A stretch of 40,507 bases of DNA from Elusimicrobiota bacterium (GTDB lineage Bacteria > Elusimicrobiota > Elusimicrobia > UBA1565 > UBA9628): contig JACRDS010000009.1 of the NCBI GenBank assembly GCA_016212825.1, forward strand, positions 1 through 40,507, written 5' to 3'. Below, in pieces: positions 1,184 to 35,443 of this stretch. The notes beneath the pieces were generated by a model. It did no database searches. It was not told the origin of the DNA and saw only the letters and a list, made by a program, of their open reading frames with translations. The position numbers and the translations under genes are program-made. How positions within the stretch are numbered: the first letter of the stretch is position 1; each line of letters opens with the position of its first letter.

Positions 1184-1597
1184 TCAGGTCCGCGCCTTGA
1201 CCGTCCTCTTCGCGCGATAGCGCGGGGAAGGCTCGTGTATCCAGCCGGGCTGCGTCGGCGACTCCAGACCCAGATGCAGGCGCATGGCGTAGTCGGCCCG
1301 GGCCATGACCTCCGGCGGCGCGAATCCTATCGCCTTGCGCAGACGGCTTTTGTCCAGGGTCCGGATCTGGTCTGCCTTGGCCTTGCTGTCCTCCTTGATC
1401 CCGCAGGCAGCGGCGGGCAGGAGAGCCTCGAATGGGAAGATTCTCGCGAGGTTGGAGGTTATCGGGAGCACCGTCACGGTCCGGGCCTGCAGATTATTGT
1501 TATCGTTGGAAACCACCAAGGCCGGACGGGTCTTCCGGATCTCGGAGCCGACGGTCGGGTCCAGGGCGGTCCAATAGATTTCGCCGCGCCGGATCAT
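1184..1597 (-). CDS. mazF: MazF/PemK-family endoribonuclease toxin
   Basis: 137 residues. The N-terminus RRGEIYWTALDP, the GSEIRKTRPALVV stretch (R24 in the RP motif) and PITSN (T47, S48) are the MazF signature: an SH3-like barrel whose Arg and Ser/Thr residues cleave mRNA at short motifs. The start chosen is the ATG at 1597, because the open frame upstream of it only reads the antitoxin gene out of frame. Its ATG overlaps the antitoxin stop by 4 nt (ATGA), the usual coupling that keeps toxin below antitoxin. A basic tail of about 20 residues follows the core. The toxin stop lies only 6 nt from the stop of the convergent DUF35 gene. Cleavage specificity cannot be read from sequence. Confidence 0.9.
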   Translation of the reverse strand: MIRRGEIYWTALDPTVGSEIRKTRPALVVSNDNNNLQARTVTVLPITSNLARIFPFEALLPAAACGIKEDSKAKADQIRTLDKSRLRKAIGFAPPEVMARADYAMRLHLGLESPTQPGWIHEPSPRYRAKRTVKART

Positions 1598-1821
1598 TCG
1601 ATGCCGTCCCCGCTCACGGCGTCCCAGTCCTGGACGAGCTGGACATTCTCGCGGGCGGATTCCCGGTAGGCCTCGGCAAGCAGGGCTTCCCGGCGCCGCG
1701 CCTCGGCGGCGGCAAGCTTCTCTCTGAGTGCTTGCGCGATGAAGGCGCTCTTGTTGGGGATGTCCTTGAGCCGGGCGGCCAAGTCTTTGGGCAGAGTGAT
1801 GTTCATTCTGTGTGTATTCAT
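1594..1821 (-). CDS. Ribbon-helix-helix antitoxin of the MazF toxin
   Basis: 75 residues from the ATG at 1821. The segment MNITLPKDLAARLKDIP is a ribbon-helix-helix DNA-binding strand and helix, and the NKSAFIAQALREKLAAAEARR stretch continues it. The acidic C-terminus (DWDAVSGDGIE) is the likely toxin-neutralising tail. Three starts are possible: GTG at 1827, ATG at 1821 and ATG at 1806. The 1821 start is preferred because GAGG sits 5 nt upstream. The gene precedes and overlaps the toxin by 4 nt. A consensus promoter and inverted repeats sit immediately upstream and over the start codon, so autorepression by the antitoxin/toxin complex is likely (inference). It could be called MazE-like or CopG-like. 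Confidence 0.85.
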   Translation of the reverse strand: MNTHRMNITLPKDLAARLKDIPNKSAFIAQALREKLAAAEARRREALLAEAYRESARENVQLVQDWDAVSGDGIE

Positions 1822-1867
1822 ATACACCTCTAATGTGTATTATAACAGGATCCGCCGGGCCAATCAA
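1812..1867 (-). promoter_or_regulatory. Sigma70-type promoter and inverted-repeat operator of the mazEF-like operon
   Basis: Reading the minus strand, TTGATT (1867-1862) and TATAAT (1844-1839) are separated by exactly 17 nt, which is close to consensus. Downstream are three half-sites of one motif: GTGTAT on the plus strand at 1812-1817, ATACAC at 1822-1827 and GTGTAT at 1835-1840. They form two inverted repeats, with 4-nt and 7-nt spacers, that overlap the -10 region, the ribosome binding site and the antitoxin start codon. This is the expected layout of a ribbon-helix-helix autorepression site. Repressor binding is inference. Confidence 0.72.
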
Positions 1868-1881
1868 GCCCCGTCTTCACC

Positions 1882-2829
1882 TCAGCGCCCCGGAGCCGGG
1901 GCGCGCTTGCGGCGCGCCGCGTGGGCGATGCCGGCGGCGTTGAGCTCCAGGTCGAGCTTGAGGAGCTCCCAGGTCTCGGGGGCGTCGAGGCCCCTCTCCC
2001 GCAGCGCCGCGCGGAAATGCTCGCGCAGGGCGGCTTCGCAGAAGGGGGTCAGCGCCGCGTCGGGCAGGCCCGAGGCCGCGGCGCTCTCCAGCAGCCGCGC
2101 TGAGAAATCCAGGTGCCCCAGCAGTTGCTCCGCGGCCGGGCGCAGGTCCGCGACCTCGCCGAAATGGCTCAGGAAGGCGCGCCGGGCTCCGGTCTTGACC
2201 AGACGTTCCACGCTGGTCCGGGCTTCTTCAGGCTCGTAGCCCGTGGGGCTGGTGGAGGGGAAGATGAAGAGCCCTCTCCCCTGGAGGGCCGGATAAGCCA
2301 GGCCGAAGGAGTCTCCCGTGAACGCCCCTTCCGAGGCCGGGTCCCAGACGCACATGTGGTGGTTGGCATGGCCCCGCGTGTGCAGGAAGGTCAGCTCCCG
2401 GCTGCCCCAGCGCAGGACCTCGCCGTCGGCCATGGCGCGCACGCGGGCCGCGGGCACCGCGCCCACGGAGCCGTAGAGCTCCTCGAAGGCCTGATCCCCG
2501 TAGACCTTGCGGGCGCCGGCCTCCAGGCGCGCGGGGTCGATGATGTGGCCCGCCGCTTTTGGGTGGGCCAGGAGCGTGGCGTTGGGGCAGGCGTCGAGCA
2601 AGGCCTGGCTGCCCGCCGCATGGTCGAGATGGGCGTGCGTCACCACCGCGTAGTCCACCTGCTCCGGGCCCAGGCCTGCGGCCTGGAGGCTCTCCAGCAG
2701 TCTCGGCAGGGCGCGCGCCGTGTTGTTGTCCACGAACAGGGCCCGGCCGCCCTCGACGAGCAGGTAGGAGGCCGCGTAGCCGGGCCGCCCCAGGTAGCGG
2801 CAGTCAATCGCGATGACCGGAGCCGGCAT
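1882..2829 (-). CDS. Metallo-beta-lactamase-fold hydrolase
   Basis: 315 residues. The metal-binding motif THAHLDH gives H65, H67, D69 and H70. Further ligands are the His in GHANHH (about H154), the Asp in FTGDSFG (D173) and a late histidine in LSHFG. This is the full dinuclear-zinc or iron set of glyoxalase II/ETHE1-like hydrolases. The C-terminal 80 residues are helical and basic at the very end. It is the last gene of the minus-strand operon, and its ATG shares one base with the stop of the adenosyltransferase gene (TGATG). A thioesterase or acyl-glutathione-like hydrolase role would suit the acyl-CoA context, but the substrate cannot be read from the sequence. Confidence 0.85.
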   Translation of the reverse strand: MPAPVIAIDCRYLGRPGYAASYLLVEGGRALFVDNNTARALPRLLESLQAAGLGPEQVDYAVVTHAHLDHAAGSQALLDACPNATLLAHPKAAGHIIDPARLEAGARKVYGDQAFEELYGSVGAVPAARVRAMADGEVLRWGSRELTFLHTRGHANHHMCVWDPASEGAFTGDSFGLAYPALQGRGLFIFPSTSPTGYEPEEARTSVERLVKTGARRAFLSHFGEVADLRPAAEQLLGHLDFSARLLESAAASGLPDAALTPFCEAALREHFRAALRERGLDAPETWELLKLDLELNAAGIAHAARRKRAPAPGR

Positions 2830-3329
2830 CAGGGCTTGCGGCGCGACTCCCGATAGGCCAGCATGAAGAACACGGTGGAGAGCCGGTTGAGGTAGGCGTA
2901 GACCGGCGGCCTGAGCTTGCCCGAGCGCAGCAGGGCCGTGCAGGCCGACTCCAGGTCCCGGCAGCGCACCCGGCATTCGTTGTAAGCCGCGGCCAGCGGA
3001 GTGTCGAAGCGCACGAACTTCTTGGGCGGCTCGCCCAAGGAATCCGCGAAGGCCTCGAGCGCGTCCACGTCCGCCCTGGTGACGGGCCAAGGCAGGCAGG
3101 CTTGTCCCGCTCCGGAGAGCTCGCCCGCCGCCTGCCAGAGCTTGCGCTGCACCTCCCTCAGGGCTGCCCAGGCCGAGCCGGCGGCGCCGAGCAGGGCCAG
3201 GTCCACGGCGCTCTGCAGCGAGTCGATCTTGCCGCCCAGCACTATGCGCGGATGGTCCTTGGCCAGCCGCCGTCCGGAGAGGTCGCTGGTGAAGCCCGCG
3301 TCGCCTTTCTTGGTGTAGACCGGCTTCAT
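2829..3329 (-). CDS. PduO-type ATP:cob(I)alamin adenosyltransferase (divergent)
   Basis: 166 residues, usual length is about 170-190. It would transfer the adenosyl group of ATP to cob(I)alamin to make coenzyme B12, which the mutases at 29590 and 35413 need. N-terminal TKKGDAGFT (residues 6-14) is the ATP-binding signature. Near the C-terminus, the CRVRCRDLE segment retains two conserved arginines and the glutamate of the catalytic helix, and YLNRLSTVFFMLAYRE matches the YLNRLSD block. Some positions diverge: the GxxDELNS block reads GGKIDSLQS, the second Arg of the RR pair is Asp, and the Asp after LNRLS is Thr. It overlaps the nitroreductase gene by 4 nt (ATGA) and MBL by 1 nt. Family call firm; full activity less certain. 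Confidence 0.82.
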   Translation of the reverse strand: MKPVYTKKGDAGFTSDLSGRRLAKDHPRIVLGGKIDSLQSAVDLALLGAAGSAWAALREVQRKLWQAAGELSGAGQACLPWPVTRADVDALEAFADSLGEPPKKFVRFDTPLAAAYNECRVRCRDLESACTALLRSGKLRPPVYAYLNRLSTVFFMLAYRESRRKP

Positions 3330-3955
3330 CGAGCGGCGGATAAGGGACCGCCGTCCCTGGAGGGTGGTCGTTCTCCGCTCCCGGAAGGGGCGGCGGGCAG
3401 GGGGAAGGGATTGCCGTGGCGGTCCAAGGACACCAGCTCGGCCAAGGGTTTGCGCTCCACCCGCCGGGGCAGGCGCGCGGGCCAGCCCACGGGGATGAGC
3501 TCCACCACGCTGCGGCCGGCCGGGACCCCCAGGATCTCTCCGGCCTTGGCGAAGTCGAAGTAGCCCGCATGCACGGTCCCCAGCCCCTCGGCGGCCGCGG
3601 CCAAAGCCAGGTGCTCGCAGGCGATGCCCAGGTCGAAGAGCATCCACGCGTCGCCCCGCGCGGTCACGGACTCGCCCTTGTACCAGCCGGAGCGGCCCGC
3701 GATGCCCACCGCGGCTACCAGCACCGGCGCCTCGGCCACGGCCTTGGTCGCGGGGTTGCCCGGCGAGAGGGTCTGCTGGAGCCGGCGCCTGAGCTCCGGG
3801 TCCTGGACCAGGATGAGCTCCCAGGGCTGGACGTTGGCCCAGGAGGGCGCGGCCCGGAAGGCTTCGAGCAGGCGCAGCAGGACCTCGGGGGCGACGGGGT
3901 CGGGCTTGAACTCCCGGATGGACTGCCGGCTGCGCACGGCCTCGTGGAATTCCAT
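3326..3955 (-). CDS. Nitroreductase-family FMN oxidoreductase
   Basis: 209 residues. SRQSIREFKPDPV near the N-terminus is the FMN-phosphate-binding SRRSIRxF motif, and PSWANVQPWELILVQ is the second flavin-binding block. The region AAAAEGLGTVHAGYF and the VVELIPVGWPA segment match the C-terminal flavin-binding half. The last 35 residues are a Pro/Ser/Arg-rich tail. Members reduce nitro groups, quinones or enones, or dehydrogenate substrates, using NAD(P)H. It starts 2 nt after the EtfA-fusion stop and overlaps the adenosyltransferase start by 4 nt, so it is co-transcribed with both. In this context it may be a flavin partner of the fusion protein, or a cobalamin or flavin reductase (inference only). 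Confidence 0.85.
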   Translation of the reverse strand: MEFHEAVRSRQSIREFKPDPVAPEVLLRLLEAFRAAPSWANVQPWELILVQDPELRRRLQQTLSPGNPATKAVAEAPVLVAAVGIAGRSGWYKGESVTARGDAWMLFDLGIACEHLALAAAAEGLGTVHAGYFDFAKAGEILGVPAGRSVVELIPVGWPARLPRRVERKPLAELVSLDRHGNPFPLPAAPSGSGERPPSRDGGPLSAAR

Positions 3956-3957
3956 GG

Positions 3958-6420
3958 TCAGGCCTCCAGGGAGATGTCCGAGACCCCGCCCAGGCGCTTG
4001 GCCATCTCCGTCATCTCCTTGAGCTTGGCCTCGGCGAACACGGAGAGCCGGGCCCCGTCCGGCGAGCCGCCGCCGTGCATGCAGCCCGGCACGCCCGAGC
4101 CGATGGTGAGCCACTCGATGAGGCGGGCGATGCGGGCCCGGGTCTCGGCCGGAGCGTGGGCCTTGAGGTACTTGCGGATGAGGTGCCCGTAGCGCTCGTC
4201 GAGGAAATCCTGGGCCGAGGGCATGCAGCCGGTCTCCGCGATGCCGCCGGCGATCTCCTGGGTCAGGCGCTTGGTCTCGTAGGGCAAGGTGGCCACGTGG
4301 ACCTTGTTGATGTTGGCCAGCAGGGGGTCGGGCAGCCAGGCCCCGGAGGGGTGCCTGCGCCCGAGCACGGCCGCGGCCAGGCCCACGCCGAAGGTGGTCT
4401 CGTTGTTGACCAGCATGCGCACCAGCTTGTCGCGGAACACCTTCTCCTGCAGGCCGTTGGCCCGGGCCATGAGGATGGCCGCGCCCACCATCACGTCGCC
4501 CTGCCCGGCCACGCAGCCGCCGATGGCCGAGCGGTAGGGCAAGGTGAAGCGCGTGACCGCGTCCTCGGCCGCGGCGTACTCGCCGTTGAGGAAGAGGCGC
4601 TCCTTCGGGACGAATACGTCCTGGAAGAAGAGGTAGGCCTGGGTGATGCCGCCGCGGGTCACCGGGTTGTCGAAGCCCGCCTCCTGCTCGCGGGTGTCCG
4701 AGGGCCGGCGCGCCTCCACGATGGTCAGGCCCGCCGCGTCGCGCGGGATGACGAAGCTCACCGCGTAGTCCGCCTCGGAGCGCTTCAGGCGCGTGCCCGG
4801 CATGACGAAGATCTCCTGAGCCGCGGCCACGCCGCAGATCATGACCTTGGCCCCGCGCACCACCACGCCGCCCGGGCGCCGGGCCACGATGCGCAGGTAG
4901 GAGTCCGGGTCGGCCTGGCGGGAGGGGGGGAGCTTGCGGTTCCCTTTTGGGTCGGTGAGCGCCCCGGCCACGGTGATGTCGCGCTCCTGCGCGCCGCGCA
5001 GCCAGCGGTGCAGCCGGCGGTGGTAGTCGGTGCCCTGCGCCTGGTCCACGTCCCAGGTGACGGACCACATGGCGTTGAGGGCCGCGCCGCCCACGCAGCG
5101 GCCGCCGGTGCAGGTGCCGGTCAGGTTGAAGGCCGCCCGCTTCATGCGGCTCAGGGCGAAGACGTCCTCGGGCGACTGCAGCAGGGAGAGGTAGCGCGAG
5201 ACGCGCTTGCCGCTGAGGTGCGAGGTGGTGGTGAAGAGGTCCTGATGCTGCGGGTCGCGGGCCGCCTCGAAGAGCTGGGCGTGTCCCTCCACGGTGCGCT
5301 TGGTCAGCGGGTCCTCGGTCACGTCTGCGATCAGGCGGCCGAACTTATGGATGTTGGGACGCATGCGGCGCAGGCTCTCCTTGTACGCCTCGGAGGTGCG
5401 GCTGAAACCCGCGGGCTTGATCCGGGCGGCCAGGCCCTTGCCGGTCTTGAGCCTCTGGAGCAGGGCCGTGAGCACTTCCCTGAGGTCGCCCACGATGCCG
5501 TAGTCCGCGCTCTGGAAGATGGGGGCCTTGGGGTCGCGGTTGACGGCCACGATGGTCTTGGCGCCGAGTATGCCCACGGTGTGGTGCATCATCCCGGAGA
5601 TGCCCGCCCCGATGTAGAGGCGGGGCTTGATGGAGACGCCGCTGGCGCCGATCATCTGCCGCGGCTTGGCCCAGCCTTCATCCACCGGGGGCCGGGTGGC
5701 GCCCACGGCACCGTCCAAAGCCCGGGACAGGTCCTCGAGCAGGGCCCAGTCCTTGCGCGAGCCCACGCCGTGGCCGCCCGCCACCACCACGGCCGCGCTC
5801 TTGAGAGCGGCCGGGCCGGAGCCCTCCGCCTCGGCGCGGACCGCCAGGGTCCGCACCCCGCGCAGGCCGCGCGGCAAAAAGACCTTCTCGCGCACGGCCT
5901 TGGCGCCCGGCGTCCGGCCGGGGCGCGCGCTGAAGACCCCGGCGGCTACGGTGGCCATCTGCGGCCGCTGGTCCGGGCAGACGATGTTGGCCATGATGTT
6001 TCCGCCGAAGCCGGGCACGGTCTGGATGAGGCTGGAGCCGTCGAACTTCAGGTCCACGCAATGGGCGCTGAGGCCGGTGCCCAGGCGGGCCGCCACGCGG
6101 GCGGCCCGGGAGGAGTCGGCGCGGCCCGCGCCCAGAAGCAGGACCTCGGGCTTGCGCCGGCGGGCCAGCTCGGAGAGGGCGTAGGCCTGCGTCGGCGCGC
6201 CGCCCTGGTCCAGGCGCGGGTCGTCGAGGACGTAGACCGTGGAGGGGCCGTGGTCCAGCAGGGCCCTGGCCGCCTTGCCCGCCGCCGAGCCCAGGACCAC
6301 GGCTTCCAGGACCATGCCGGCGCTCTCCGCCAGCGCCCGGCCCTTGCCCAGCAGCTCCAGACCGACCGGGTCGGGCCGGCCGTCCTCATGGGAGACGAAC
6401 ACCCAGATGGAAGGCTTCAT
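3958..6420 (-). CDS. Fusion: electron-transfer flavoprotein alpha subunit + 4-hydroxybutyryl-CoA dehydratase-like domain
   Basis: One uninterrupted 820-residue frame. Residues 1-330 are a complete EtfA: N-terminal nucleotide-binding-like domain, then the FAD domain with VVVAGGHGVG (211-220), GATRPPVDEGW (240-250), LYIGAGISG (268-276) and VNRDPKAPIFQSADYGIVGDL (293-313). Residues about 337-820 align end to end with the flavin/FeS 4-hydroxybutyryl-CoA dehydratase/vinylacetyl-CoA isomerase family (AbfD). AbfD FeS cysteines C99, C103 and C299 correspond to C437, C442 (CX4C instead of CX3C) and C636. The His ligand H292 is Y629, and catalytic T190, E257, Y296, K300 and E455 are C529, Q594, I633, V637 and G779 (alignment by eye). 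It overlaps etfB by 4 nt. It is probably an ETF-coupled flavoenzyme with a non-canonical reaction, not an ordinary dehydratase. Confidence 0.85.
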   Translation of the reverse strand: MKPSIWVFVSHEDGRPDPVGLELLGKGRALAESAGMVLEAVVLGSAAGKAARALLDHGPSTVYVLDDPRLDQGGAPTQAYALSELARRRKPEVLLLGAGRADSSRAARVAARLGTGLSAHCVDLKFDGSSLIQTVPGFGGNIMANIVCPDQRPQMATVAAGVFSARPGRTPGAKAVREKVFLPRGLRGVRTLAVRAEAEGSGPAALKSAAVVVAGGHGVGSRKDWALLEDLSRALDGAVGATRPPVDEGWAKPRQMIGASGVSIKPRLYIGAGISGMMHHTVGILGAKTIVAVNRDPKAPIFQSADYGIVGDLREVLTALLQRLKTGKGLAARIKPAGFSRTSEAYKESLRRMRPNIHKFGRLIADVTEDPLTKRTVEGHAQLFEAARDPQHQDLFTTTSHLSGKRVSRYLSLLQSPEDVFALSRMKRAAFNLTGTCTGGRCVGGAALNAMWSVTWDVDQAQGTDYHRRLHRWLRGAQERDITVAGALTDPKGNRKLPPSRQADPDSYLRIVARRPGGVVVRGAKVMICGVAAAQEIFVMPGTRLKRSEADYAVSFVIPRDAAGLTIVEARRPSDTREQEAGFDNPVTRGGITQAYLFFQDVFVPKERLFLNGEYAAAEDAVTRFTLPYRSAIGGCVAGQGDVMVGAAILMARANGLQEKVFRDKLVRMLVNNETTFGVGLAAAVLGRRHPSGAWLPDPLLANINKVHVATLPYETKRLTQEIAGGIAETGCMPSAQDFLDERYGHLIRKYLKAHAPAETRARIARLIEWLTIGSGVPGCMHGGGSPDGARLSVFAEAKLKEMTEMAKRLGGVSDISLEA

Positions 6421-7211
6421 GAGAGCACCTTGTCCTTGCGCAACCTTTCCAGCAACTGGGCCGCGGCCTCGTCAGGCGAGCCCTGCAGCATCTCTCCCCT
6501 GCGCTTGACCGGCGGGGTGAATATGTTGAGCATGCGAGTGGGCGAGCCGGCCAGGCCCACGCCGGAGGGAGCCAGCTTGAGGTCGCGGGCCGACCAGGCG
6601 GAGATCTTCTTGGACGCGGCCGCGCGGAGCGAGGCCAGCGGGGTCAGCCGCGGCGCGTTGGCCGACTGGTCCAAGGTGACCAGGGCCGGGAGCTCCGTCT
6701 CGCACACGGCCTGCCTTTCCTCGCGCAGGCAATGGGCATGCAGCTTCTTCCTCTTGATCTCGAGGGAGCGGGCGAAGGTCAGGTCCGGTATGCCGAGGAG
6801 CTCGGCCAACTGGGGGCCCACCTGGCCCGTGCTGCCGTCGGCGCTGTAGCCGCCGCAGAGGATCAGGTCGAAGCGGCCGAGCTTGCGCACGGCCGCGGCC
6901 AGCACGCGCGCCGTGGCCAAGGTGTCGGCGCCGGCGAAGGCGGGGTCCGTGAGCAGGCAGGCCCGGTCGCAGCCCAGGGCCAGGGCCTCCTGGAGCTGCT
7001 CCAAGGCGCCCGGCGCGGCCATGGCCAGCGCGCTGACGCGGCCCTTGTGACGGGCCTTGAGCGCGGCCGCGGCCTCCAGGGCGTTGCGGTCCAGGGGGTT
7101 GATGACGGAAGGCACCTCGTCGCGGCGCAGGAGCATGGTGTCCGGGTCCAGGCGCAGCTTGTCGAAGCGGGAGGGGTCGGGCACGGGCTTGACGCAGACG
7201 ATGATGTGCAT
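6417..7211 (-). CDS. etfB: Electron transfer flavoprotein beta subunit (partner of the EtfA fusion)
   Basis: 264 residues. CVKPVPDP at the N-terminus, NPLDRNALEAAAALK (about 38-52) and GGYSADGSTGQVGPQLAELLGIP are EtfB hallmarks that bind the nucleotide (AMP or a second FAD) and contact EtfA. The C-terminal segment carries the recognition-loop region and the arm that wraps EtfA. The stop overlaps the start of the EtfA fusion by 4 nt, and the acyl-CoA dehydrogenase lies 14 nt upstream. Together they should form an acyl-CoA-dehydrogenase/ETF electron-transfer unit. Whether this ETF bifurcates electrons (second FAD in EtfB) cannot be settled by eye. It differs clearly from the second EtfB at 11815. 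Confidence 0.9.
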   Translation of the reverse strand: MHIIVCVKPVPDPSRFDKLRLDPDTMLLRRDEVPSVINPLDRNALEAAAALKARHKGRVSALAMAAPGALEQLQEALALGCDRACLLTDPAFAGADTLATARVLAAAVRKLGRFDLILCGGYSADGSTGQVGPQLAELLGIPDLTFARSLEIKRKKLHAHCLREERQAVCETELPALVTLDQSANAPRLTPLASLRAAASKKISAWSARDLKLAPSGVGLAGSPTRMLNIFTPPVKRRGEMLQGSPDEAAAQLLERLRKDKVLS

Positions 7212-7225
7212 GGAGGCTCCCTCGG

Positions 7226-8359
7226 TCAGTTGAGCGCGGCGCGCGAGACCACGATCTTGCCCACCTCGGTGGTGCCGCCGGCCGAGATGCAGACCATGGC
7301 GTCGCGGAAGCAGCGCTGCACCGGGTAGTCCAGCATGGTGCCGCAGCCGCCGTGGATCTCCAGGGCCTTGCGGCTGGCGCGCAGGGCGGCCTCGGTGGTG
7401 TAGAGCTTGGCCATGGTCATGTGCGTGGCGCAGTCGCGGCCCCGGTCCTTGAGCCAGGAGGCGCGGTAGCAGACCAGCCGGGCCGTCTCCAGGTCGGTCA
7501 GGATGTCGGCCACGTTCCACTGGATGGCCTGCAGGGCGGCGATGGGCTTGCCGTAGAGAGTGCGGCTCTTGGAGAACTTCACGGCTTCGTCGAATGCCGC
7601 CTCCAGGATGCCCAAGGACACCGCGGCCATGCCCGGCCGGCCCACCTCGCCGATGGTCTTGAGCGCCACCTTCATGCCCTCGCCCTCGTCGGCGACCAGG
7701 GCCGATTCCGGCACGCGGCAGTTCTTGAAGAAGAACTCGCCGGTGTCCGCGCCGAGCAGGCCCATCTTGTGCTCCTCGCGGCCCAAAGAGAAGCCCTGGG
7801 CCCCTTTCTCTATGATGAAGGCGCTCAGGCCCCGCGAGCCCTCGCCGGTCTTGGCGATGATCAGGGGGGCGGCGCAGAGGTGGGCGTTGGTGATGTAGCA
7901 CTTGCTGCCGTTGAGCACGTAGCCGCCCCGGGCGCGCGCGGCCGTGCTGGCCATGCCCACGAGGTCGGACCCGCCCGTGGGCTCGGTCACCGCGCAAGTC
8001 CCCAGGAACTCGCCCCGGCACATCCGCGGCAAAAGCCGCTCCTTCTGGGCCTTGCTGCCCCAGTCGTTGACGGCCGCGGACTGCATGTGGTGCACCTGCA
8101 AAGAGATGCCCACGGCCGCCGAGACCTTGCTGACCTCGGCCACGGCCGCGGTGCGGGCCAGCCAGCCCAGCTCCGAGCCGCCGTAGCGGCGCGGCGTGAC
8201 CAGGCCCAGCAGGCCGACCTCGGCCAGCTGCTTGATGAGGGGCTTTGGGAACTTCCCGGAGCGCTCCATCTCCGGGACCAAAGGCGCCACGACTTGGCGC
8301 GCGAAGTCGCGCGCGGTGCGCTGCACGATCTTGACGGGGTTGGGGAAATCGAAGTCCAT
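7226..8359 (-). CDS. Acyl-CoA dehydrogenase-family flavoprotein lacking the usual catalytic Glu
   Basis: 377 residues, usual length. FAD and substrate-binding blocks are present: GTCAVTEPTGGSD, YVLNGSKCYITNA, KSRTLYGKPIAALQAIQ and the C-terminal KALEIHGGCGTMLDYPVQRCFRDA block. The short-chain enzyme motif YEGTSEI aligns without gaps to AGGTTEV here, placing G361 where the catalytic Glu normally sits. The alternative position on helix G, used by isovaleryl-CoA and long-chain dehydrogenases, also holds Gly (GEVGRPG). The base is therefore not at either standard site. It is the first gene of the minus-strand operon, followed after 14 nt by etfB, so it should pass electrons to the EtfB/EtfA-fusion pair. 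It may act on an unusual acyl-CoA using another acidic residue (inference). Confidence 0.88.
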   Translation of the reverse strand: MDFDFPNPVKIVQRTARDFARQVVAPLVPEMERSGKFPKPLIKQLAEVGLLGLVTPRRYGGSELGWLARTAAVAEVSKVSAAVGISLQVHHMQSAAVNDWGSKAQKERLLPRMCRGEFLGTCAVTEPTGGSDLVGMASTAARARGGYVLNGSKCYITNAHLCAAPLIIAKTGEGSRGLSAFIIEKGAQGFSLGREEHKMGLLGADTGEFFFKNCRVPESALVADEGEGMKVALKTIGEVGRPGMAAVSLGILEAAFDEAVKFSKSRTLYGKPIAALQAIQWNVADILTDLETARLVCYRASWLKDRGRDCATHMTMAKLYTTEAALRASRKALEIHGGCGTMLDYPVQRCFRDAMVCISAGGTTEVGKIVVSRAALN

Positions 8360-8364
8360 GGTGC

Positions 8365-8392
8365 TTCACTCTAATAAAATAATGGCTATAAT
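8365..8392 (+). promoter_or_regulatory. Promoter for the ptb-buk/beta-oxidation operon in a 43-bp divergent spacer
   Basis: TTCACT (8365-8370) and a perfect TATAAT (8387-8392) are spaced 16 nt apart inside an AT-rich spacer between two divergent operons. Initiation would fall near 8399, only a few nucleotides before the ATG at 8403, and no Shine-Dalgarno sequence is visible there, so the message may be nearly leaderless. The same spacer must also drive the minus-strand operon starting at 8359. Confidence 0.5.
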
Positions 8393-8402
8393 ACAAACTG
8401 CC

Positions 8403-10640
8403 ATGTTCCGCATAGAGGAGTCGTTCGTCAAGCACATCCTCTCCCTCCAGAAAGACCGCCCCACCGTCGTGTTCACCGAGCCGGACGACCCCCGCGTGCT
8501 CGAGGCCGTCTGCTATCTGGGGCGCTTCATCAAGCCGGTGCTCCTGGCCTCCGAGGAGTCCGTGCGCGCCTGGGCGGCGCAGAGCCTGTCCCACCTGGAG
8601 CCCACCCGCGTGGAGTTCGCCCTGTCGGAGTGCGCCTTCGTGGACATCCCCCGGCAGGCCGCCCTGGTCGAGGAGTTCGCGGCCGACTGCCTCAAGAACC
8701 GGCGCTGCGGCAGCGCGGCCGCGGACCTGGCGACGGCCAGGTCCGCGGTCTCGGAGCCGGGTCTCTTCGGCGTCTACGCCGCGCACCTGGGCCACGCGGA
8801 CATGGTGGTGGGCGGGGCCCGCCACGGCGCCAAGGACTTCTTCCGGCCCATGCTCGCGGTGCTCTCCAAGCGGGAGGTGGTCTGCGAGGCGGGCTTCTTC
8901 GTCCTGCCCGACGAGCACCCGGAATCGCTCTACCCCCACAACATCGTGGTCTTCGGCGACATCGGCGTCAACGCGACCATGAGCCCGCGCAAGCTGGCGG
9001 ACGTGGCCGTGGGCATCTGCGCGGTGGCGCGCGACCTCATCCCGGAGGAGGTCCTGCCCGAGATCCACGGCGCCATAGTCTCCTACTCGCACCGGGGCTC
9101 CGACGAGGGCCCCTCCCCGGACATGATCCGCCAGGCCATGGCCCTGATCCCCGGCCTGCTGGCCGAGCGCGTGCGCCTGGGCCGGCGCTACGCCGGCATC
9201 CGCATCGCGGGCGAGGTGAAGATCAGCGCGGCCGTCTCGCGGCGCTCCGCCGAGCTCTACGGCGGCGACGGCCTCGGCGGCGGAACCAACGTCATCATCT
9301 GCCCCAACCTGGAGACCGGCAACCTCCTCTACGACCTCTACTCCTCGCGCTACCCCACCGCCAAGAAGTTCCAGGTCATCTTCGGCGTGGGCTTCCGGGG
9401 CGTGGACCTGGCCATCGACTGCAGCCCGGAGGACGTGCGCCTGGCGGTCAAGGCCTCGGTGCTGCGCCTGCACCGCTACGGCCGCTGGACCCGCACCCCC
9501 CAGGACACCTTCTTCCGCCGCCACCGCGTCCTGGCCGTCAACCCGGGCTCCACCTCCACCAAGATCGCGGTCTATGAAGGAGAGGTGGAGACCTTCAGCC
9601 GCGAGCTGCAGCACACCCAGGCGGAACTGGCCCCCTTCGCCGGCCGCCGCATCGCCGAGCAGTACGCCATGCGCAAGGACTCCGTTCTGCGCGCCTTGGG
9701 CGAGGCCAAGCTCGGCCCCGGCGACATGGACGCCTTCTGCGGGCGCGGCGGACTGCTGCGCCCCATCCCGCACGGCACTTACCGGGTGGGCGAGGCCATG
9801 CTCGCCGAGCTGCGCGCGGGCCTGGGCGGGGAGCACGCCTCCAATCTGGGCGGCCTCATCGCCCACGACCTGGCCGCGCCCGCGGGCAAGCCCGCCTTCA
9901 TCGTGGACCCTGTGGTGGTCGACGAGACTCCCCCGCGGGTGAAGGTCACCGGCGTCAAGGCCATCCGCCGGCGAGTGATCAGCCACGCCCTCAACCAGAT
10001 CGCCTCGGCGCGGCGCTACGCGCAGGAGAACGAGACCTTCTACGAGCGCGTCAACGTGGTGGTCTGCCACCTGGGCGGCGGCATCTCCATCGGGGCCCAT
10101 TCCCAGGGCCGCTACATCGACGCCAACAACGGGCTCGACGGCGAGGGGCCCTTCAGCCCGGAGCGCTGCGGCTCTTTGCCCCAGGCGCAGTTCGCGGAGC
10201 TCTGCTTCTCGGGGCGCCTGACCCACGCGGAGGTCAAGAAGCTCATCAAGGGCGCGGGTGGGCTCATCGACCTGCTGGGCACCTCGGACCTGCGCGAGGT
10301 GGAGCGCCGCATCGCCGCCGGCGACGCGGAGGCCGCGGAGGTCTTCGACGCCATGGCCTACCAGATCGCCAAGGCCGCGGCCGCCTTGCTGCCGGCCTTC
10401 GACGGGCAGAAGCTCGACCGCGTCATCCTGACCGGCGGCATGGCGCGCTCCGCCATGCTGGTGGAGCGCCTCGCGGGCTACCTGGTCGGCCTGGGCTGCG
10501 GCGTCACCGTCTACCCCGGAGAGAACGAGATGGCGGCCCTGGCCAAGGGCGCCCTGCGCGTGCTCTACGGCCGGGAAGCCGCGCGCGAGTACACGTCCCC
10601 GGACCGGGCGTCGCTGGCGCCGCGGCCCGCAATCCCTTAG
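8403..10640 (+). CDS. Fused phosphate (iso)butyryltransferase - (iso)butyrate kinase
   Basis: 745 residues in one frame. Residues 1 to about 365 are a phosphate acetyl/butyryltransferase domain (acyl-CoA + Pi to acyl-phosphate): TVVFTEPDDPRVLEAV, ADMVVGGARHGAKDFFRP and the NVIICPNLETGNLLYDL block. Residues about 375-745 are a butyrate kinase (acyl-phosphate + ADP to acid + ATP): VLAVNPGSTSTK, GRGGLLRPIPHGTY, EHASNLGG, FIVDPVVVDE, HALNQIASAR, HLGGGISIGAH, NNGLDGEGPFSPER and the GENEMAALAKGALRVL end. These enzymes are normally separate adjacent genes. The start was chosen at the ATG giving FRIEESFVKHI, where the family homology begins. It leads the beta-oxidation operon, so it would harvest ATP from butyryl- or isobutyryl-CoA. 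Confidence 0.9.
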   Translation: MFRIEESFVKHILSLQKDRPTVVFTEPDDPRVLEAVCYLGRFIKPVLLASEESVRAWAAQSLSHLEPTRVEFALSECAFVDIPRQAALVEEFAADCLKNRRCGSAAADLATARSAVSEPGLFGVYAAHLGHADMVVGGARHGAKDFFRPMLAVLSKREVVCEAGFFVLPDEHPESLYPHNIVVFGDIGVNATMSPRKLADVAVGICAVARDLIPEEVLPEIHGAIVSYSHRGSDEGPSPDMIRQAMALIPGLLAERVRLGRRYAGIRIAGEVKISAAVSRRSAELYGGDGLGGGTNVIICPNLETGNLLYDLYSSRYPTAKKFQVIFGVGFRGVDLAIDCSPEDVRLAVKASVLRLHRYGRWTRTPQDTFFRRHRVLAVNPGSTSTKIAVYEGEVETFSRELQHTQAELAPFAGRRIAEQYAMRKDSVLRALGEAKLGPGDMDAFCGRGGLLRPIPHGTYRVGEAMLAELRAGLGGEHASNLGGLIAHDLAAPAGKPAFIVDPVVVDETPPRVKVTGVKAIRRRVISHALNQIASARRYAQENETFYERVNVVVCHLGGGISIGAHSQGRYIDANNGLDGEGPFSPERCGSLPQAQFAELCFSGRLTHAEVKKLIKGAGGLIDLLGTSDLREVERRIAAGDAEAAEVFDAMAYQIAKAAAALLPAFDGQKLDRVILTGGMARSAMLVERLAGYLVGLGCGVTVYPGENEMAALAKGALRVLYGREAAREYTSPDRASLAPRPAIP

Positions 10641-16984: not shown

Positions 16985-17013
16985 TTGTCCGCCCTACCAA
17001 AATGTGCTTTTAT
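16985..17013 (+). promoter_or_regulatory. Probable promoter of the pyrimidine-degradation operon
   Basis: TTGTCC (16985-16990) and TTTTAT (17008-17013) are separated by 17 nt in the 127-nt gap before the beta-ureidopropionase gene. Each box matches consensus at four of six positions. It is the only AT-richer stretch in the gap. The leader would be about 50 nt, with GAGAGGGG close to the ATG at 17071. Confidence 0.4.
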
Positions 17014-17070
17014 GAGGTCTCGCCTCCAAATGGGGAGCTAGGGGCTCAAAGACCAAGAGAGGGGTCCAAA

Positions 17071-17943
<873 letters not shown>

Positions 17944-17954
17944 GAGGCTCACAC

Positions 17955-19406
17955 ATGAAGACCGCGGCGCGGGAGAAGTCGTCGGCCGGGAGCGCCCGCC
18001 CCGGCTCCACGGGGGAGACCTTGGTCAGGGGCGGGACCGTGTTCACGGCTGCGGACTCCTTCCCGGCCGACATCCTCATCCGGGGCGAGAAGATCGCGGC
18101 CATAGGCGAGAGGCTGACGCCGGGCGCCGCGGCCGGCGTGGTGGACGCCAAGGGCCTGGAGATCTATCCGGGCGGCGTGGACGTGCACACCCATTTCGAG
18201 CTGCCCTTCATGGGCACGGTGTCCGCGGACGACTTCGAGAGCGGCACCATCGCCGCGGCCTGCGGCGGCACCACCACCATAATCGACTTCGTCATCCCCT
18301 CCAAGGGCGGCAGCCTCCTCGACGCCCTGGCGGCCTGGCGCAAGAAGGCGGAAGGCAAGGCGGTCGTGGACTACGGCTTCCACATGGCTTTGGTGGAGAT
18401 GAACGCAGATGTGGCGGCCGAGTTCCCCAAGCTCATCCGCGCGGGCGTCACCAGCTTCAAGTGCTTCATGGCTTACAAGGGCGCGTTCATGATGGATGAC
18501 GACCAGCTCCTGGAGACCTTGGGCCTGGCCAAGAAGCATGGCGGCCTGGTCTCCGTCCACGCCGAGAACGGGGACATGCTGACCCATCTCATGAAGCATC
18601 TGCTCGCGGCGGGCAAGACCGGCCCCGAATACCACCCCGTCGCCCATCCGGCCGAGGCCGAGGGCGAGGCCGTGCACCGGGCCGTCGCTCTGGCGCAGAT
18701 GGCCCAGGCGCCGCTCTACATCGTGCACCTGAGCTGCCGGGAAGCCCTGGCCGAGGTCAAGGCCGCGCGCTGCCGAGGCCAGCTGGTCCTGGCCGAGACC
18801 TGCCCCCAGTACCTGCTCCTCGACGACGAGCTGTATAGGAAGAACGGCTTTGAAGCCGCCAAGTGGGTGATGTCGCCGCCGCTGCGGGACAAAGCCGGCC
18901 AGGAGCAGCTCTGGCAGGGCCTGCGCGACGGCTTCATCCAGGGCGTGGCCACCGACCACTGTTCCTTCCGGTTCCAGGGCCAGAAGGACATGGGCCAGTC
19001 GGCCTTCACCAAGATCCCCAACGGCATCCCCGCGGTCGGAGACCGCGTGAGCCTCCTCTACACCTACGGCGTGGGCAAGAAGCGCCTGAACCGCAACCAG
19101 TTCGCGGCCGTCATCGCCGCCAACCCGGCCAAGATCTTCGGCCTCTACCCGCAGAAGGGGACTATCGCGGTAGGCTCGGACGCGGACCTCGTGCTCTTCG
19201 ACCCCAAGAAGAAGGGCCGCGTATCCAAGGACAACACCCATCACAACGTGGACTACTCGGCCTTCGAGGGCTTCGCCTTGGAGGGGCTGCCCGTCTTGGT
19301 CATGTCCCGGGGCCGGATCATCGCCAAGGACGACGAGTTCCTGGGCCGCAAAGGCTGCGGGCGCTTCATCAAGAGGAAGGGATTCGACGCGCAGGACTGG
19401 AGCTAG
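17955..19406 (+). CDS. hydA: Dihydropyrimidinase (D-hydantoinase family)
   Basis: 483 residues. The amidohydrolase dinuclear metal site is complete: H78 and H80 (DVHTHFELPF), carboxylated-lysine candidate K169 (SFKCFMAYKG), H202 (VHAENGD), a later His in IVHLSC and the Asp in GVATDHCSF. It opens dihydrouracil or dihydrothymine to the N-carbamoyl beta-amino acid. The first 22 residues are a low-complexity Ser/Ala/Gly extension before the conserved LVRGGTVFTA; no closer in-frame ATG is better placed, and AGGAGG sits correctly before this one. Its position between beta-ureidopropionase and a beta-amino-acid aminotransferase argues for the pyrimidine route rather than hydantoin use. Confidence 0.92.
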   Translation: MKTAAREKSSAGSARPGSTGETLVRGGTVFTAADSFPADILIRGEKIAAIGERLTPGAAAGVVDAKGLEIYPGGVDVHTHFELPFMGTVSADDFESGTIAAACGGTTTIIDFVIPSKGGSLLDALAAWRKKAEGKAVVDYGFHMALVEMNADVAAEFPKLIRAGVTSFKCFMAYKGAFMMDDDQLLETLGLAKKHGGLVSVHAENGDMLTHLMKHLLAAGKTGPEYHPVAHPAEAEGEAVHRAVALAQMAQAPLYIVHLSCREALAEVKAARCRGQLVLAETCPQYLLLDDELYRKNGFEAAKWVMSPPLRDKAGQEQLWQGLRDGFIQGVATDHCSFRFQGQKDMGQSAFTKIPNGIPAVGDRVSLLYTYGVGKKRLNRNQFAAVIAANPAKIFGLYPQKGTIAVGSDADLVLFDPKKKGRVSKDNTHHNVDYSAFEGFALEGLPVLVMSRGRIIAKDDEFLGRKGCGRFIKRKGFDAQDWS

Positions 19407-19409
19407 ACC

Positions 19410-20708
19410 ATGCCAGTGGAAACCACGAAGAACGCGGAAGTGACCAAGAAGTACAAGGAGTTCCTGTATCCCTCGGTCATCACCTACTACCAGGAGCCCT
19501 TGCCCTTGGTCTCAGGCCAGGGCTGCCAGGTGACCGACGCGGAGGGGAGGAAGTACCTGGACTTCTTCGGGGGCATCCTCACTGTATCCATCGGCCACTG
19601 CCACGCAGGTGTCACGGCCAAGGTCATCGCCCAGCTCAAGAAGCTCCAGCATGTCTCCACCCTCTACCCCACGGCTCCCGTCTCGGACCTGGCCGAACGG
19701 CTGGCCGGCATAACCCCCAAGGGCCTGCGCCGGAGCTTCTTCACCAACAGCGGCACCGAGGCCGACGAGACGGCCGTCTTGACCGCCCAACACTACACCG
19801 GGGCGGCCGAGATCATCGCGCTGAGGCACTCCTACAGCGGCCGCTCGGCCATGGCCATGAGCCTGACCGCGCACTCTGCCTGGAGGATCTCCCGCACGCC
19901 CGTGCCCAACATCCGGCACGCGCACGCGCCCTACTGCTACCGCTGCCCCTTCAAGCTGGAGTATCCGGCCTGCGAGCTGGCCTGCGCCAAGGACATCGAG
20001 GAGCTCATCTTGACCGAGACCTGCGGCAAGGTCGCGGCTTTCCTGGCCGAGCCCATCCTGGGCGTGGGCGGCTTCGTGGTCCCGCCCAAGGAGTACTTCC
20101 AGACGGCCGTGGAGATCGTGCGCCGCTACGGCGGGCTCTTCATCGCCGACGAGGTGCAGACGGGCTGGGGCCGCACCGGCTGCAAGTGGTTCGGCATCGA
20201 GCATTTCAACGTGGTCCCGGACATCATGACCTCGGCCAAGGGCATGGCCAACGGCATCCCCATCGGCTGGACCGTGACCACGGACCAGATCGCCGCGGGC
20301 CTCAAGGGCCTGACCATCTCCACCTTCGGAGGCAATCCCGTATCCTGCGCGGCCGCGCACGCGACCATAGACGCCATCCAGGAGGAAGGCCTGCTGGACA
20401 ACGTCGAGAAGACCGGCGCCTATCTGCGCGAGCACCTGCTCGGCCTGCAGAAGGATTTCCCCGGCATCGGCGACGTGCGGGGCATGGGTCTGATGCAGGG
20501 CGTCGAGTTCGTGACGGACCGCAAGACCAAGGCCCCGGACGCCAAGATCGTGGCCCGGCTGTTCGAGGAGACCAAGAAGGAGGGACTGCTCATCGGCAAG
20601 GGCGGGCTCTACGGCAACGTCCTGCGCATCAGCCCGCCCATGTGCGCGACCAAGGGCGACGTGGACGACGCCATCAAGCGCCTGCGCAAGGCGCTGGAAA
20701 AGATCTAG
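19410..20708 (+). CDS. Class III PLP aminotransferase (beta-alanine / 3-aminoisobutyrate type)
   Basis: 432 residues. The fold-type I class III signature is FIADEVQTGWGRTG, with D247 holding the pyridine nitrogen, and the Schiff-base lysine is K277 (TSAKGMANGIPIG). The FTNSGTEADETAV block binds the PLP phosphate. The YCYRCPFKLEYPACELACAKDIEELI stretch resembles the AGXT2 branch, which includes alanine-glyoxylate and (R)-3-amino-2-methylpropionate-pyruvate aminotransferases. It would convert beta-alanine or 3-aminoisobutyrate to malonate or methylmalonate semialdehyde. It starts 3 nt after the dihydropyrimidinase stop and 9 nt before the semialdehyde dehydrogenase. The exact amino acceptor is unknown. 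Confidence 0.9.
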   Translation: MPVETTKNAEVTKKYKEFLYPSVITYYQEPLPLVSGQGCQVTDAEGRKYLDFFGGILTVSIGHCHAGVTAKVIAQLKKLQHVSTLYPTAPVSDLAERLAGITPKGLRRSFFTNSGTEADETAVLTAQHYTGAAEIIALRHSYSGRSAMAMSLTAHSAWRISRTPVPNIRHAHAPYCYRCPFKLEYPACELACAKDIEELILTETCGKVAAFLAEPILGVGGFVVPPKEYFQTAVEIVRRYGGLFIADEVQTGWGRTGCKWFGIEHFNVVPDIMTSAKGMANGIPIGWTVTTDQIAAGLKGLTISTFGGNPVSCAAAHATIDAIQEEGLLDNVEKTGAYLREHLLGLQKDFPGIGDVRGMGLMQGVEFVTDRKTKAPDAKIVARLFEETKKEGLLIGKGGLYGNVLRISPPMCATKGDVDDAIKRLRKALEKI

Positions 20709-20717
20709 GAGGTTACC

Positions 20718-22196
20718 ATGGCCAGCACCACGGCGGTCACGAAATACGGCGACCTGAACAACTTCATCGGCGGCAAGCCCTCGAGCCCGGCCCAGGCGGA
20801 ACGCGCTAAGAGGATCAGTCCGGTCGACGGCAGCGTCCTTTCCACCTTCCCCCTGTCCGGCACCGACGAGCTGGACAAGGCGGTCGCGGCCGCCCAGAAG
20901 GCGTTCCCGGAATGGTCGAGCCGCACCATCAAGGAGCGCGCCCAGGTCTTCTTCAAATACTACGAGCTCCTCTCCAAGAACCTCAAGTCCTGCGCCGAGA
21001 TCATGCACGACGAGATGGGCAAGAACCTCGACGAGGCCATGCAGGAGACGGCCAAGTCCCTGGAACTGACCGAGTTCGCCTGCGCCCTGCCGCAGGTCGC
21101 CACCGGCGACTTCGAGGAGGTCAGCCGCGGAGTCGAGTGCCATGAGGAGCACCTCCCCCTGGGCGTGGTCGCCTCCATCACCCCCTTCAACTTCCCGCAC
21201 ATGGTGCCGCACTGGACCCTCCCCAACGCCATCGTCCTGGGCAACACCATGGTCCTCAAGCCCTCGCGCGAGGCGCCCCGCACCGTGCTGCGCATCGCCG
21301 AGATGCTGCAGGAGGCGGGCCTGCCCGACGGCGTCCTGAACGTCGTCTGCGGCGGCCGCGAGATCGTCACGGCCATCGCCGAGCATCCCGGCATCGAGGC
21401 CGTGTCCTTCGTGGGCTCGACCAAGGTCGCCAAGATGGTCTACCAGAAGACGACGAACCGCGGCAAGCGGTGCCTGGCTTTGGGCAGCGCCAACAACCAC
21501 CTGATCCTCATGCCCGACGCCCACCCGGCCAATTCGGCGGCCAACATCGCCGCCTCCTACCTCGGCTGCGCCGGCCAGCGCTGCATGTCCGCCTGCGTGC
21601 TGGTGGCCGTGGGCGATTGCGAAGAGACCATCGCCAAGATCATCGAGGAATCGAAGAAGTTCGTGCCCGGGGTCAACATGAGCGCCATCGTCAACCCCGA
21701 GGCCAAGGCCTCGATCGCCGGCTTCATCGACCGGGCCGAGAAGGACGGGGCCAAGGTCCTGCTCGACGGCCGCCAGGTCCAGCCGCCCAAAGGCCTGGCC
21801 AAGGGCTGCTACCTCGGCCCGACCATCATCGAGGCCAAGGCTGGCTCGGAGATCGCGGTCGAGGAGAACTTCGGCCCGGTGCTGACCATCGTGCGCGCCC
21901 AGAACCTGACCGAGGCGCTCTCCATCGCCAACTCCTCGCCCTACGGCAACGGCGGCTCGATCTTCACCCAGAGCGGCCGGTCCGCCGAGGTCTTCTGCGA
22001 CAAGATCCAGGCCGGCATGGTCGGCGTCAACGTCGGCGTGCCGGTGCCGCGCGAGCCCTTCTCATTCGGCGGCTGGAAGGATTCGATCGTGGGCGGCGGC
22101 GACATCACGGGCAAGAGCGCGGTGCGCTTCTGGACCAAGGTCAAGAAGATCTCCTGCAAGTGGAACCCGGACCGGCCGCTCCTCTGGCTGGCCTGA
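20718..22196 (+). CDS. mmsA: CoA-acylating (methyl)malonate-semialdehyde dehydrogenase
   Basis: 492 residues. The aldehyde dehydrogenase fold has nucleophile C289 (CAGQRCMSA). ITPFNFPHMVPHWTLPNAI and LGSANNHLILMPDA replace the usual ALDH blocks; the general-base Glu of ordinary ALDHs is absent, as is characteristic of MmsA-type enzymes that use CoA instead of water. It converts malonate semialdehyde to acetyl-CoA, or methylmalonate semialdehyde to propionyl-CoA, with NAD+ and release of CO2. AGGAGG lies 6 nt before the ATG. It is the last gene of the pyrimidine operon, and its propionyl-CoA would feed the carboxylase and mutase genes at 33875-37909. Its stop codon is the first triplet of the direct repeat at 22194. 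Confidence 0.92.
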   Translation: MASTTAVTKYGDLNNFIGGKPSSPAQAERAKRISPVDGSVLSTFPLSGTDELDKAVAAAQKAFPEWSSRTIKERAQVFFKYYELLSKNLKSCAEIMHDEMGKNLDEAMQETAKSLELTEFACALPQVATGDFEEVSRGVECHEEHLPLGVVASITPFNFPHMVPHWTLPNAIVLGNTMVLKPSREAPRTVLRIAEMLQEAGLPDGVLNVVCGGREIVTAIAEHPGIEAVSFVGSTKVAKMVYQKTTNRGKRCLALGSANNHLILMPDAHPANSAANIAASYLGCAGQRCMSACVLVAVGDCEETIAKIIEESKKFVPGVNMSAIVNPEAKASIAGFIDRAEKDGAKVLLDGRQVQPPKGLAKGCYLGPTIIEAKAGSEIAVEENFGPVLTIVRAQNLTEALSIANSSPYGNGGSIFTQSGRSAEVFCDKIQAGMVGVNVGVPVPREPFSFGGWKDSIVGGGDITGKSAVRFWTKVKKISCKWNPDRPLLWLA

Positions 22197-26172: not shown

Positions 26173-26180
26173 CGTCCCTC

Positions 26181-32500: not shown

Positions 32501-32946
32501 AGCTCACCGACCTCGTCGAGGAGGCGGTGCTCTGCGAGTTCGAGCGCATCAGCGAACGCGGCGGGGTGCTGGGCGCCATGGAGACGGCCTACCAGCGGGG
32601 CAGGATCCAGGAGGAGTCCCTGCGCTATGAGTCCTTGAAGCACAGCGGGCAGCTCCCCATCATGGGCGTCAACACATTCCTTTCTCCCCACGGTTCGCCC
32701 ACCGCCCGGCCCAAGGAGGTCACCCGGGCCGCGCCGGCGGAGATGCGCAGGCAGATAGAGACCTTGCGCGCCCTGCACAAGGCGGCGGCGGACCGCGCCC
32801 CGGCTTTGCTGGCCGAGCTGCGCCGCTGCGCCTTGGGAGAGGAGAACGTGTTCGCCGCGCTCATGGAAGCGGCCAAGGCCTGCTCCTTGGGCCAGATCAC
32901 TGGGACGCTCTTCGAGGCCGGGGGGCAGTACCGCCGCAGCCTGTGA
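29590..32946 (+). CDS. icmF: IcmF: fused isobutyryl-CoA mutase (B12 domain, G-protein chaperone, mutase)
   Basis: 1118 residues. It interconverts isobutyryl-CoA and n-butyryl-CoA with adenosylcobalamin. Residues about 20-150 are the B12-binding domain with FDGHDAAIN (D32, H34). Residues about 195-460 are a MeaI-type GTPase with P-loop GTGGSGKS (204-211). A helical linker precedes the mutase TIM barrel at about 560-1118. Substrate residues decide the call: F579 (MFAGEGG) aligns with methylmalonyl-CoA mutase Y89, and Q767 (AQNTCI) with R207, the Phe/Gln pair of isobutyryl-CoA mutases. The start ATG overlaps the previous stop by 4 nt; the open frame upstream is only the shadow of that gene. Neighbouring butyryl-CoA genes fit its product. 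Confidence 0.94.

Positions 32947-33874: not shown

Positions 33875-33878
<4 letters not shown>
32943..33878 (+). CDS. meaB: MeaB/ArgK-family GTPase chaperone of methylmalonyl-CoA mutase
   Basis: 311 residues. The G3E-family P-loop is [12 protein letters not shown] (G51-T59), followed by [22 protein letters not shown] (switch I region), [16 protein letters not shown] (Walker B/switch II) and VVNKGD (base recognition). A C-terminal helical dimerisation arm is present. MeaB gates adenosylcobalamin loading and rescues inactivated mutase. The start is GTG, overlapping the icmF stop by 4 nt. IcmF already contains its own G-domain, so this stand-alone protein most likely serves the split methylmalonyl-CoA mutase encoded two genes downstream. 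Confidence 0.92.

Positions 33879-35443
<1,565 letters not shown>

Follow-up and report, generated by a model that had tools for sequence, protein, structure and literature searches.

Why would EtfA, the alpha subunit of an electron-transfer flavoprotein (ETF), be joined in one chain with a domain that resembles the 4-hydroxybutyryl-CoA dehydratase AbfD? This question is raised by a minus-strand locus on the contig JACRDS010000009.1 of an Elusimicrobiota metagenome-assembled genome (MAG; GCA_016212825.1). The MAG contig was analysed over its whole length of 40,507 nucleotides and is here called the window (G000:C41). The locus comprises genes for an acyl-CoA dehydrogenase-fold flavoprotein (ACD), EtfB, the EtfA-AbfD-like fusion, a nitroreductase-family flavoprotein, a cobalamin adenosyltransferase and a metallo-β-lactamase (MBL)-fold hydrolase, and the original prediction had described it as one operon for ETF-coupled chemistry on an unusual acyl-CoA. 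The fusion locus is real and conserved, and it is a new fusion of known enzyme kinds. The six-gene reading has to be narrowed to a core of four genes (ACD, EtfB, fusion and nitroreductase), three of which are found together across phyla.

The fusion and its conserved gene neighborhood

In the fusion protein, a linker of about 15 residues joins the EtfA part to the HpaB/AbfD-type domain, and the frame is unbroken. Full-length fusions with the same junction recur in six more Elusimicrobia genomes and in the loci L043 and L048, and an assembly error is therefore excluded. The identity to the protein of the window is 76-93% among the Elusimicrobia fusions and about 50-59% for free-standing forms of the domain. 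No description of this architecture was found in the literature searched, most subscription journals lying outside that search.

Our sample of relatives consisted of 147 genomes, with the genome of the window as G000. The full fusion is present in seven of them (G000, G002, G016, G022, G046, G051, G054), which belong to three families of one Elusimicrobia order, and the distinctive ACD is limited to exactly the same seven genomes. All seven show the gene order ACD-EtfB-fusion-nitroreductase, which is always complete, with nitroreductase orthologs (66-91%) directly downstream of the fusion, and a close ortholog of this nitroreductase is limited to those genomes. Where a named relative has this operon, it is an Elusimicrobia MAG that derives from groundwater, a lake or a comparable sample. 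When named genomes were scanned, the fusion was also detected in the Acidobacteria MAG loci L042, L043, L046 and L047, and in L048. ACD and EtfB genes lie ahead of it where the contig allows, which gives the ACD-EtfB-fusion core in L043, L046, L047 and L048, and a nitroreductase gene follows the fusion in none of the Acidobacteria and L048 loci whose contig extent permits the comparison. The expectation of a conserved gene set thus holds for the four core genes in 7/7 genomes and fails for the MBL and adenosyltransferase genes, which adjoin the core only in the genus of the window (G000, G002). The prediction of an ETF-coupled acyl-CoA system whose catalytic residues are altered is supported by the joint occurrence of the four genes in all seven genomes.

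The trees of two core genes disagree on Elusimicrobia GWA2_69_24 (L038/L045), where the fusion groups with Acidobacteria and L048 (97/98 in the tree of the AbfD-like domain), while the ACD groups with Elusimicrobia. This conflict could be due to transfer or to conflicting signal between the genes.

Altered residues in the AbfD-like domain

The nearest solved relatives of the dehydratase half are AbfD (1u8v), which matches fusion residues 342-813 with its residues 4-489 (phmmer, 1.1e-96), and vinylacetyl-CoA delta-isomerase (6vjr; 3.8e-91). AbfD-family enzymes contain FAD and a His-ligated [4Fe-4S] cluster, which are used for a difficult radical elimination. The cluster ligands of AbfD, which we take to be Cys99-x3-Cys103, His292 and Cys299, are accompanied in the active site by the presumably catalytic Glu455, together with Tyr296 and Lys300. 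The domain of the window belongs, over its entire length, to the same HpaB-type fold family as both enzymes and has counterparts of Cys99, Cys103 and Cys299, but differs from them by its fusion to EtfA, by a C-x4-C motif with one more residue between the first two cysteines, and by replacements at six positions: His292 is Tyr (Y629), Glu455 is Gly (Gly779), Thr190 and Ser456 are Cys, Tyr296 is Ile, and Lys300 is Val. Despite its whole-chain homology to AbfD, the fusion therefore has neither the AbfD-type ligand set nor Glu455, Tyr296 and Lys300. Candidate cluster ligands are C437, C442, C636 and C780, plus C529.

These replacements characterize a whole clade. Of 47 aligned homologues, 21 carry His at position 292 together with C-x3-C. 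Tyr292, C-x4-C, Gly455 and Cys456 are present in every protein of the window's clade whose sequence covers these sites, and Cys190 is missing from just one of them. His292 and Cys456 occur together in none of the 47 proteins (21 with His and no Cys, 24 with Tyr and Cys, two with neither). As the canonical homologues L067, L070 and L072 keep Glu455 despite an equally short 448-456 loop, the length of this loop is not the cause of the Glu455 loss. The variant clade is supported by 100/100 and has a long stem, the fused proteins form a single subclade within it (97/97), and the replacements are common to free-standing and fused forms from several phyla. The persistence of the three cluster cysteines, the loss of the His and the gain of a cysteine beside the position of Glu455 suggest a ligand swap, as far as this can be judged from the alignment.

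Outliers of the AbfD family without His292 are L080, with C-x4-C and Gln292, and L086, which has Val292 and lacks the first Cys. A large expansion of the family was seen in the genomes G322 and G325, where one Syntrophaceae-type genome alone has about ten matches to it.

The acyl-CoA dehydrogenase and the ETF subunits

The ACD possesses the N-terminal, middle and C-terminal ACAD domains and the corresponding fold. Its AlphaFold2 model (pLDDT 87.3) matches best the butyryl-CoA dehydrogenase Bcd of A. fermentans (4l1f; Z 50.7, root-mean-square deviation 2.0, 372 aligned residues), with several other ACADs within 1 Z unit of this match. In the J-K loop, ISAGGTTE stands in place of IYEGTSE, and the catalytic Glu of SCAD and MCAD is a Gly across the core subfamily. 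The claim that both the dehydrogenase and the fusion lack standard catalytic residues was hence correct. Subfamily-specific motifs are HHM, KCxITNxH (KCFITNxH-type) and AGGT, and the first two are kept subfamily-wide with nearly no exceptions outside the divergent L145.

In LCAD and isovaleryl-CoA dehydrogenase (IVD), the J-K loop Glu is also replaced, the base is located on helix G, and the reaction is the same (PMC11153573). The ACD of the window has a candidate residue near this helix G site, namely Glu238 in a TIxExGR motif with a one-residue insertion, but it is placed three residues before the conserved Arg, not one. Glu238 is present in all fusion-linked ACDs and missing in the relatives L141, L142 and L144, which weakens the idea that it is a relocated base. 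The distant ACD of L145 (7328-8464, minus strand; 42%) has the J-K loop PSAGTSD and is encoded beside two EtfBA pairs and FixCX-like genes.

With respect to the ETF subunits, EtfB matches CarD far better than human ETF-beta (1.4e-56 vs 2.6e-17), and the EtfA part of the fusion likewise matches CarE better than human ETF-alpha (4e-61 vs 4.9e-31). By sequence similarity, the pair is closest to the bifurcating (group 2) ETFs and far from the human type. The flavin motif of EtfB is largely kept (GADTLAT, DGSTGQVGP), with a Ser for the Asp of the bifurcating DGDTAQ motif. The core thus resembles Bcd-EtfAB and CarCDE in its set of ACD, EtfB and EtfA, with EtfA and EtfB being closest here and the ACD model resembling A. 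fermentans Bcd, and it differs from them by the C-terminal flavoenzyme-family domain of EtfA, an ACD without the J-K loop Glu, and DGST in place of DGDT.

Free-standing variants in Syntrophia

The other members of the variant clade are free-standing proteins in Syntrophia; within one Syntrophia-type class, 12 of 155 genomes encode them. In the locus L116 of the Syntrophia genome G428, separate genes for a TetR-like regulator, ACD, EtfB, EtfA and the variant AbfD-like protein lie in a row, with only 1 nt between the last two, and the identities to the proteins of the window are 52% for the ACD and 59% for the variant protein. As these parts are separate but adjacent and in the same order, the fusion is likely to have joined partners of a pre-existing module. 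In a relative of L116, the genome G430, TetR-ACD-EtfB-EtfA is present and the variant gene is missing.

In several other Syntrophia clusters (L091, L110-L113, L120), the gene of the free-standing variant follows a CoA-transferase gene and adjoins different ACD/EtfBA genes and FixCX-like genes. From this gene context, the free-standing proteins probably act on acyl-CoAs made from carboxylates, in ETF-linked pathways. In L115, the variant gene (8838-10292, minus strand) lies amid genes for a CoA-transferase, cystathionine-type and cysteine-synthase-type pyridoxal phosphate enzymes and an apparent ABC transporter, which is a possible hint of a substrate derived from sulfur amino acids.

A proposed ETF-linked redox role of the variant domain and its alternatives

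What could such a complex do? Solved structures of ETF complexes place the C-terminal segment of EtfA within the shuttle domain, where the alpha-FAD is bound (PMC9232219). An extra domain at the C-terminus of EtfA would therefore be tethered to the shuttle flavin, and this tethering, combined with the loss of the elimination residues, favors a redox role. We propose that the core encodes an anaerobic ETF-coupled acyl-CoA complex whose variant domain is redox-active with the EtfA flavin, and we give this full proposal a probability of about 45%. The AbfD-like domain would keep its FAD and a [4Fe-4S] cluster, probably with cysteine ligands only (C437, C442, C636, C780 or C529), and would no longer carry out the AbfD-type water elimination. 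On an acyl-CoA, it may function as redox enzyme or relay, with a short-range electron exchange with the alpha-FAD in either direction. The ACD would be the other redox end, and the beta-FAD of EtfB would provide the link to NAD(H) and possibly to ferredoxin, with the nitroreductase as probable auxiliary flavin oxidoreductase. It is rather unlikely, though conceivable, that the ETF specifically drives or harvests a one-electron (radical) acyl-CoA reaction at a flavo-Fe-S domain that derives from AbfD, has a cluster with cysteine ligands only and is covalently attached to the EtfA shuttle domain, the scaffold of a redox-neutral radical dehydratase thereby having turned into an ETF-linked oxidoreductase.

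Several points weigh against a redox-active complex of this kind. The AlphaFold2 model of the whole fusion, calculated with 15 sequences, has a mean pLDDT of 57.5 with mostly <50 in the dehydratase half, which is too low to derive a cluster geometry. The contrast between His292 and Cys456 reflects essentially one evolutionary event and therefore is no independent statistical evidence. Bifurcation is suggested by similarity only, and the Asp of the DGDTAQ motif is a Ser in EtfB. Finally, the ACD module is present, like the variant protein, in 12 of the 155 Syntrophia-type genomes, and the two sets share only two genomes (G322, G428), which is near chance. A tight coupling of both in Syntrophia can be rejected on these counts, and L116 is thereby left as the single unfused case.

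What alternatives exist for a redox role of the variant domain? An unlikely but serious one is that the AbfD-like half has remained a lyase or isomerase without net redox chemistry, which uses other acid/base residues on another acyl-CoA, and that the fusion only serves to pass its unsaturated product on to the ACD, much as AbfD feeds crotonyl-CoA to butyryl-CoA dehydrogenase/EtfAB in 4-hydroxybutyrate fermentation. Such a function would agree with the closest characterised relatives, AbfD and vinylacetyl-CoA isomerase, with the clustering of the free-standing variants with CoA-transferase and ACD/Etf genes, which fits an enzyme for CoA-activated carboxylates, and with the butyrate-type acyl-phosphate/kinase gene that lies head-to-head in the window. 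It is difficult to reconcile with the clade-wide replacement of His292, Glu455, Tyr296 and Lys300, and a fusion to an electron shuttle offers no obvious advantage to a non-redox step; moreover, two of the seven genomes with the fusion gave no match to the CoA-transferase domain PF13336. A fermentation of GABA or 4-hydroxybutyrate via an ordinary AbfD was also considered and rejected, as no separate AbfD homologue was found in 294 sampled Elusimicrobiota genomes and the fusion lacks the AbfD residues.

It is quite improbable that the AbfD-like half no longer has any catalytic function and serves for electron relay or docking, with the ACD alone doing the chemistry. The model for this would be CarE and LctC, in which EtfA is likewise fused to an extra domain that potentially carries Fe-S clusters, and a redox-relay function of Fe-S domains fused to EtfA is known from characterised complexes (PMC9232219). 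The loss of the known catalytic residues and the conservation of the cysteines would be compatible with a relay. However, the domains of CarE and LctC are N-terminal ferredoxin domains near the beta-FAD (PMC9232219), whereas that of the window is C-terminal, beside the alpha-FAD shuttle, and derived from an acyl-CoA enzyme; it is also strongly conserved as a whole domain, both among the fusions and in the free-standing forms, and the vicinity of the latter to CoA-transferases suggests an enzyme. That we deal with an ordinary ACD/ETF set, neutral drift and an accidental fusion without special chemistry is very improbable and largely refuted by the conservation. All parts do come from common families, and LCAD and IVD show that the Glu of an ACD may move without a change in the reaction (PMC11153573), with Glu238 lying near that site. 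But Glu238 is absent in some relatives (see above), the same replacements are found in free-standing and fused forms of several phyla, the fused forms make up a monophyletic clade that has been retained, and the three core genes have dN/dS ratios of 0.21-0.26 in comparison to a same-genus genome.

A further comparison can be made with BbuA, the gamma-butyrobetainyl-CoA trimethylamine-lyase, which also is an ACD-superfamily flavoenzyme, catalyses an unusual acyl-CoA step, is found near CoA-transferases and has about 10% identity to AbfD (PMC8364193). By its published description, to which we liken the system of the window, BbuA differs from it as a single enzyme with neither ETF nor fusion.

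Gene organization, regulatory setting and neighboring genes

Open reading frames, spacing and Pfam matches all agree with the six minus-strand genes and families that had been predicted (Table 1). The junctions from the ACD to the MBL gene measure 14, -4, 2, -4 and -1 nt, and from this spacing the six genes are predicted to form a single transcription unit. Each of them has a dN/dS ratio of 0.17-0.50 relative to the same-genus genome, and all six hence evolve under constraint.

Table 1. Features of the six-gene locus and its upstream region in the window.
Feature	Position	Strand	Description
ACD gene	7226-8359	minus	377 aa; Pfam Acyl-CoA_dh N/M/1; acyl-CoA dehydrogenase-fold flavoprotein
EtfB gene	6417-7211	minus	264 aa; Pfam ETF; electron-transfer flavoprotein beta subunit
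Fusion gene, entire	3958-6420	minus	820 aa; Pfam ETF + ETF_alpha + HpaB_N + HpaB, single chain
Fusion, EtfA part (residues 1-325)	5446-6420	minus	Pfam ETF 5-177, ETF_alpha 206-284; includes the C-terminal shuttle domain, predicted to bind alpha-FAD
Fusion, AbfD-like domain (residues 341-820)	3961-5400	minus	Pfam HpaB_N/HpaB; 1u8v match
Nitroreductase-family flavoprotein gene	3326-3955	minus	209 aa; Pfam Nitroreductase; nearest structure 4dn2
PduO-type cobalamin adenosyltransferase gene	2829-3329	minus	166 aa; Pfam Cob_adeno_trans
MBL-fold hydrolase gene	1882-2829	minus	315 aa; Pfam Lactamase_B
Divergent intergenic region, ACD gene/Ptb-Buk fusion gene	8360-8402	no strand	43 nt; likely shared promoter region

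The ACD gene diverges from a Ptb-Buk fusion gene (8403-10640, plus strand), a single 745-aa open reading frame with a phosphate butyryl/acetyltransferase-like domain and butyrate kinase, and the start codons are 43 nt apart. In G002 and G016, too, the ACD gene faces a counterpart of this gene (72-89%) head-to-head. A head-to-head orientation of the core with a butyrate-type or acyl-CoA gene is found in four of the seven genomes; loci that show it besides the window are L033, L037 and L035 (there with ACD2). Given the short gap and the recurring arrangement, the core operon and the divergent short-chain acyl-CoA operon are probably co-regulated, which makes it doubtful that the locus is separate from the adjacent beta-oxidation operon, as had been assumed.

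The adenosyltransferase and the MBL hydrolase are local passengers outside the conserved unit. In all ten genomes tested, a single PF01923 match was found, wherever it was located, and the copy of the window is the sole one found in its genome. Of the two roles initially considered for this gene, a link to a dedicated B12 mutase is rejected, since genomes tested that do not have the gene here carry one elsewhere, and its being simply carried along is favored. The adenosyltransferase most likely serves the methylmalonyl-CoA mutase that is encoded in the same window, where the region 32943-37909 (plus strand) contains genes for MeaB, a methylmalonyl-CoA decarboxylase-alpha-like carboxyltransferase, a split methylmalonyl-CoA mutase and an epimerase. 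The MBL protein has only one other relative among the 147 genomes, on a separate contig, and its best structural sequence matches, all weak, are B3 beta-lactamase-type enzymes and the PqsE-type thioesterase group. A thioester hydrolysis in the pathway, as originally envisaged, thus finds no comparative support.

Other parts of the window encode further functions. Two blocks (17002-22196, plus strand; 24919-27527, minus strand) include genes for an N-carbamoylputrescine amidase/nitrilase-like protein, a dihydropyrimidinase, a class-III aminotransferase, a CoA-acylating malonate/methylmalonate-semialdehyde dehydrogenase and a PreA-type dihydropyrimidine dehydrogenase, a set that resembles reductive pyrimidine breakdown. 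A PemK/MazF-family toxin-like domain is encoded at 1184-1867 (minus strand; Pfam PemK_toxin, 2.2e-29).

Implications

The variant clade constitutes a natural experiment on whether the AbfD scaffold can perform net redox chemistry. All elements of such an experiment are at hand: the ligand His and the acid/base residues are replaced, cysteines are gained, an ETF is joined in some lineages, and free-standing forms are available as comparators. If the proposed role is true, the protein of the window would represent a new fusion architecture among ETF complexes, and the conserved core would indicate that uncultured Elusimicrobia, Acidobacteria and Syntrophia have an acyl-CoA step that has yet to be mapped.

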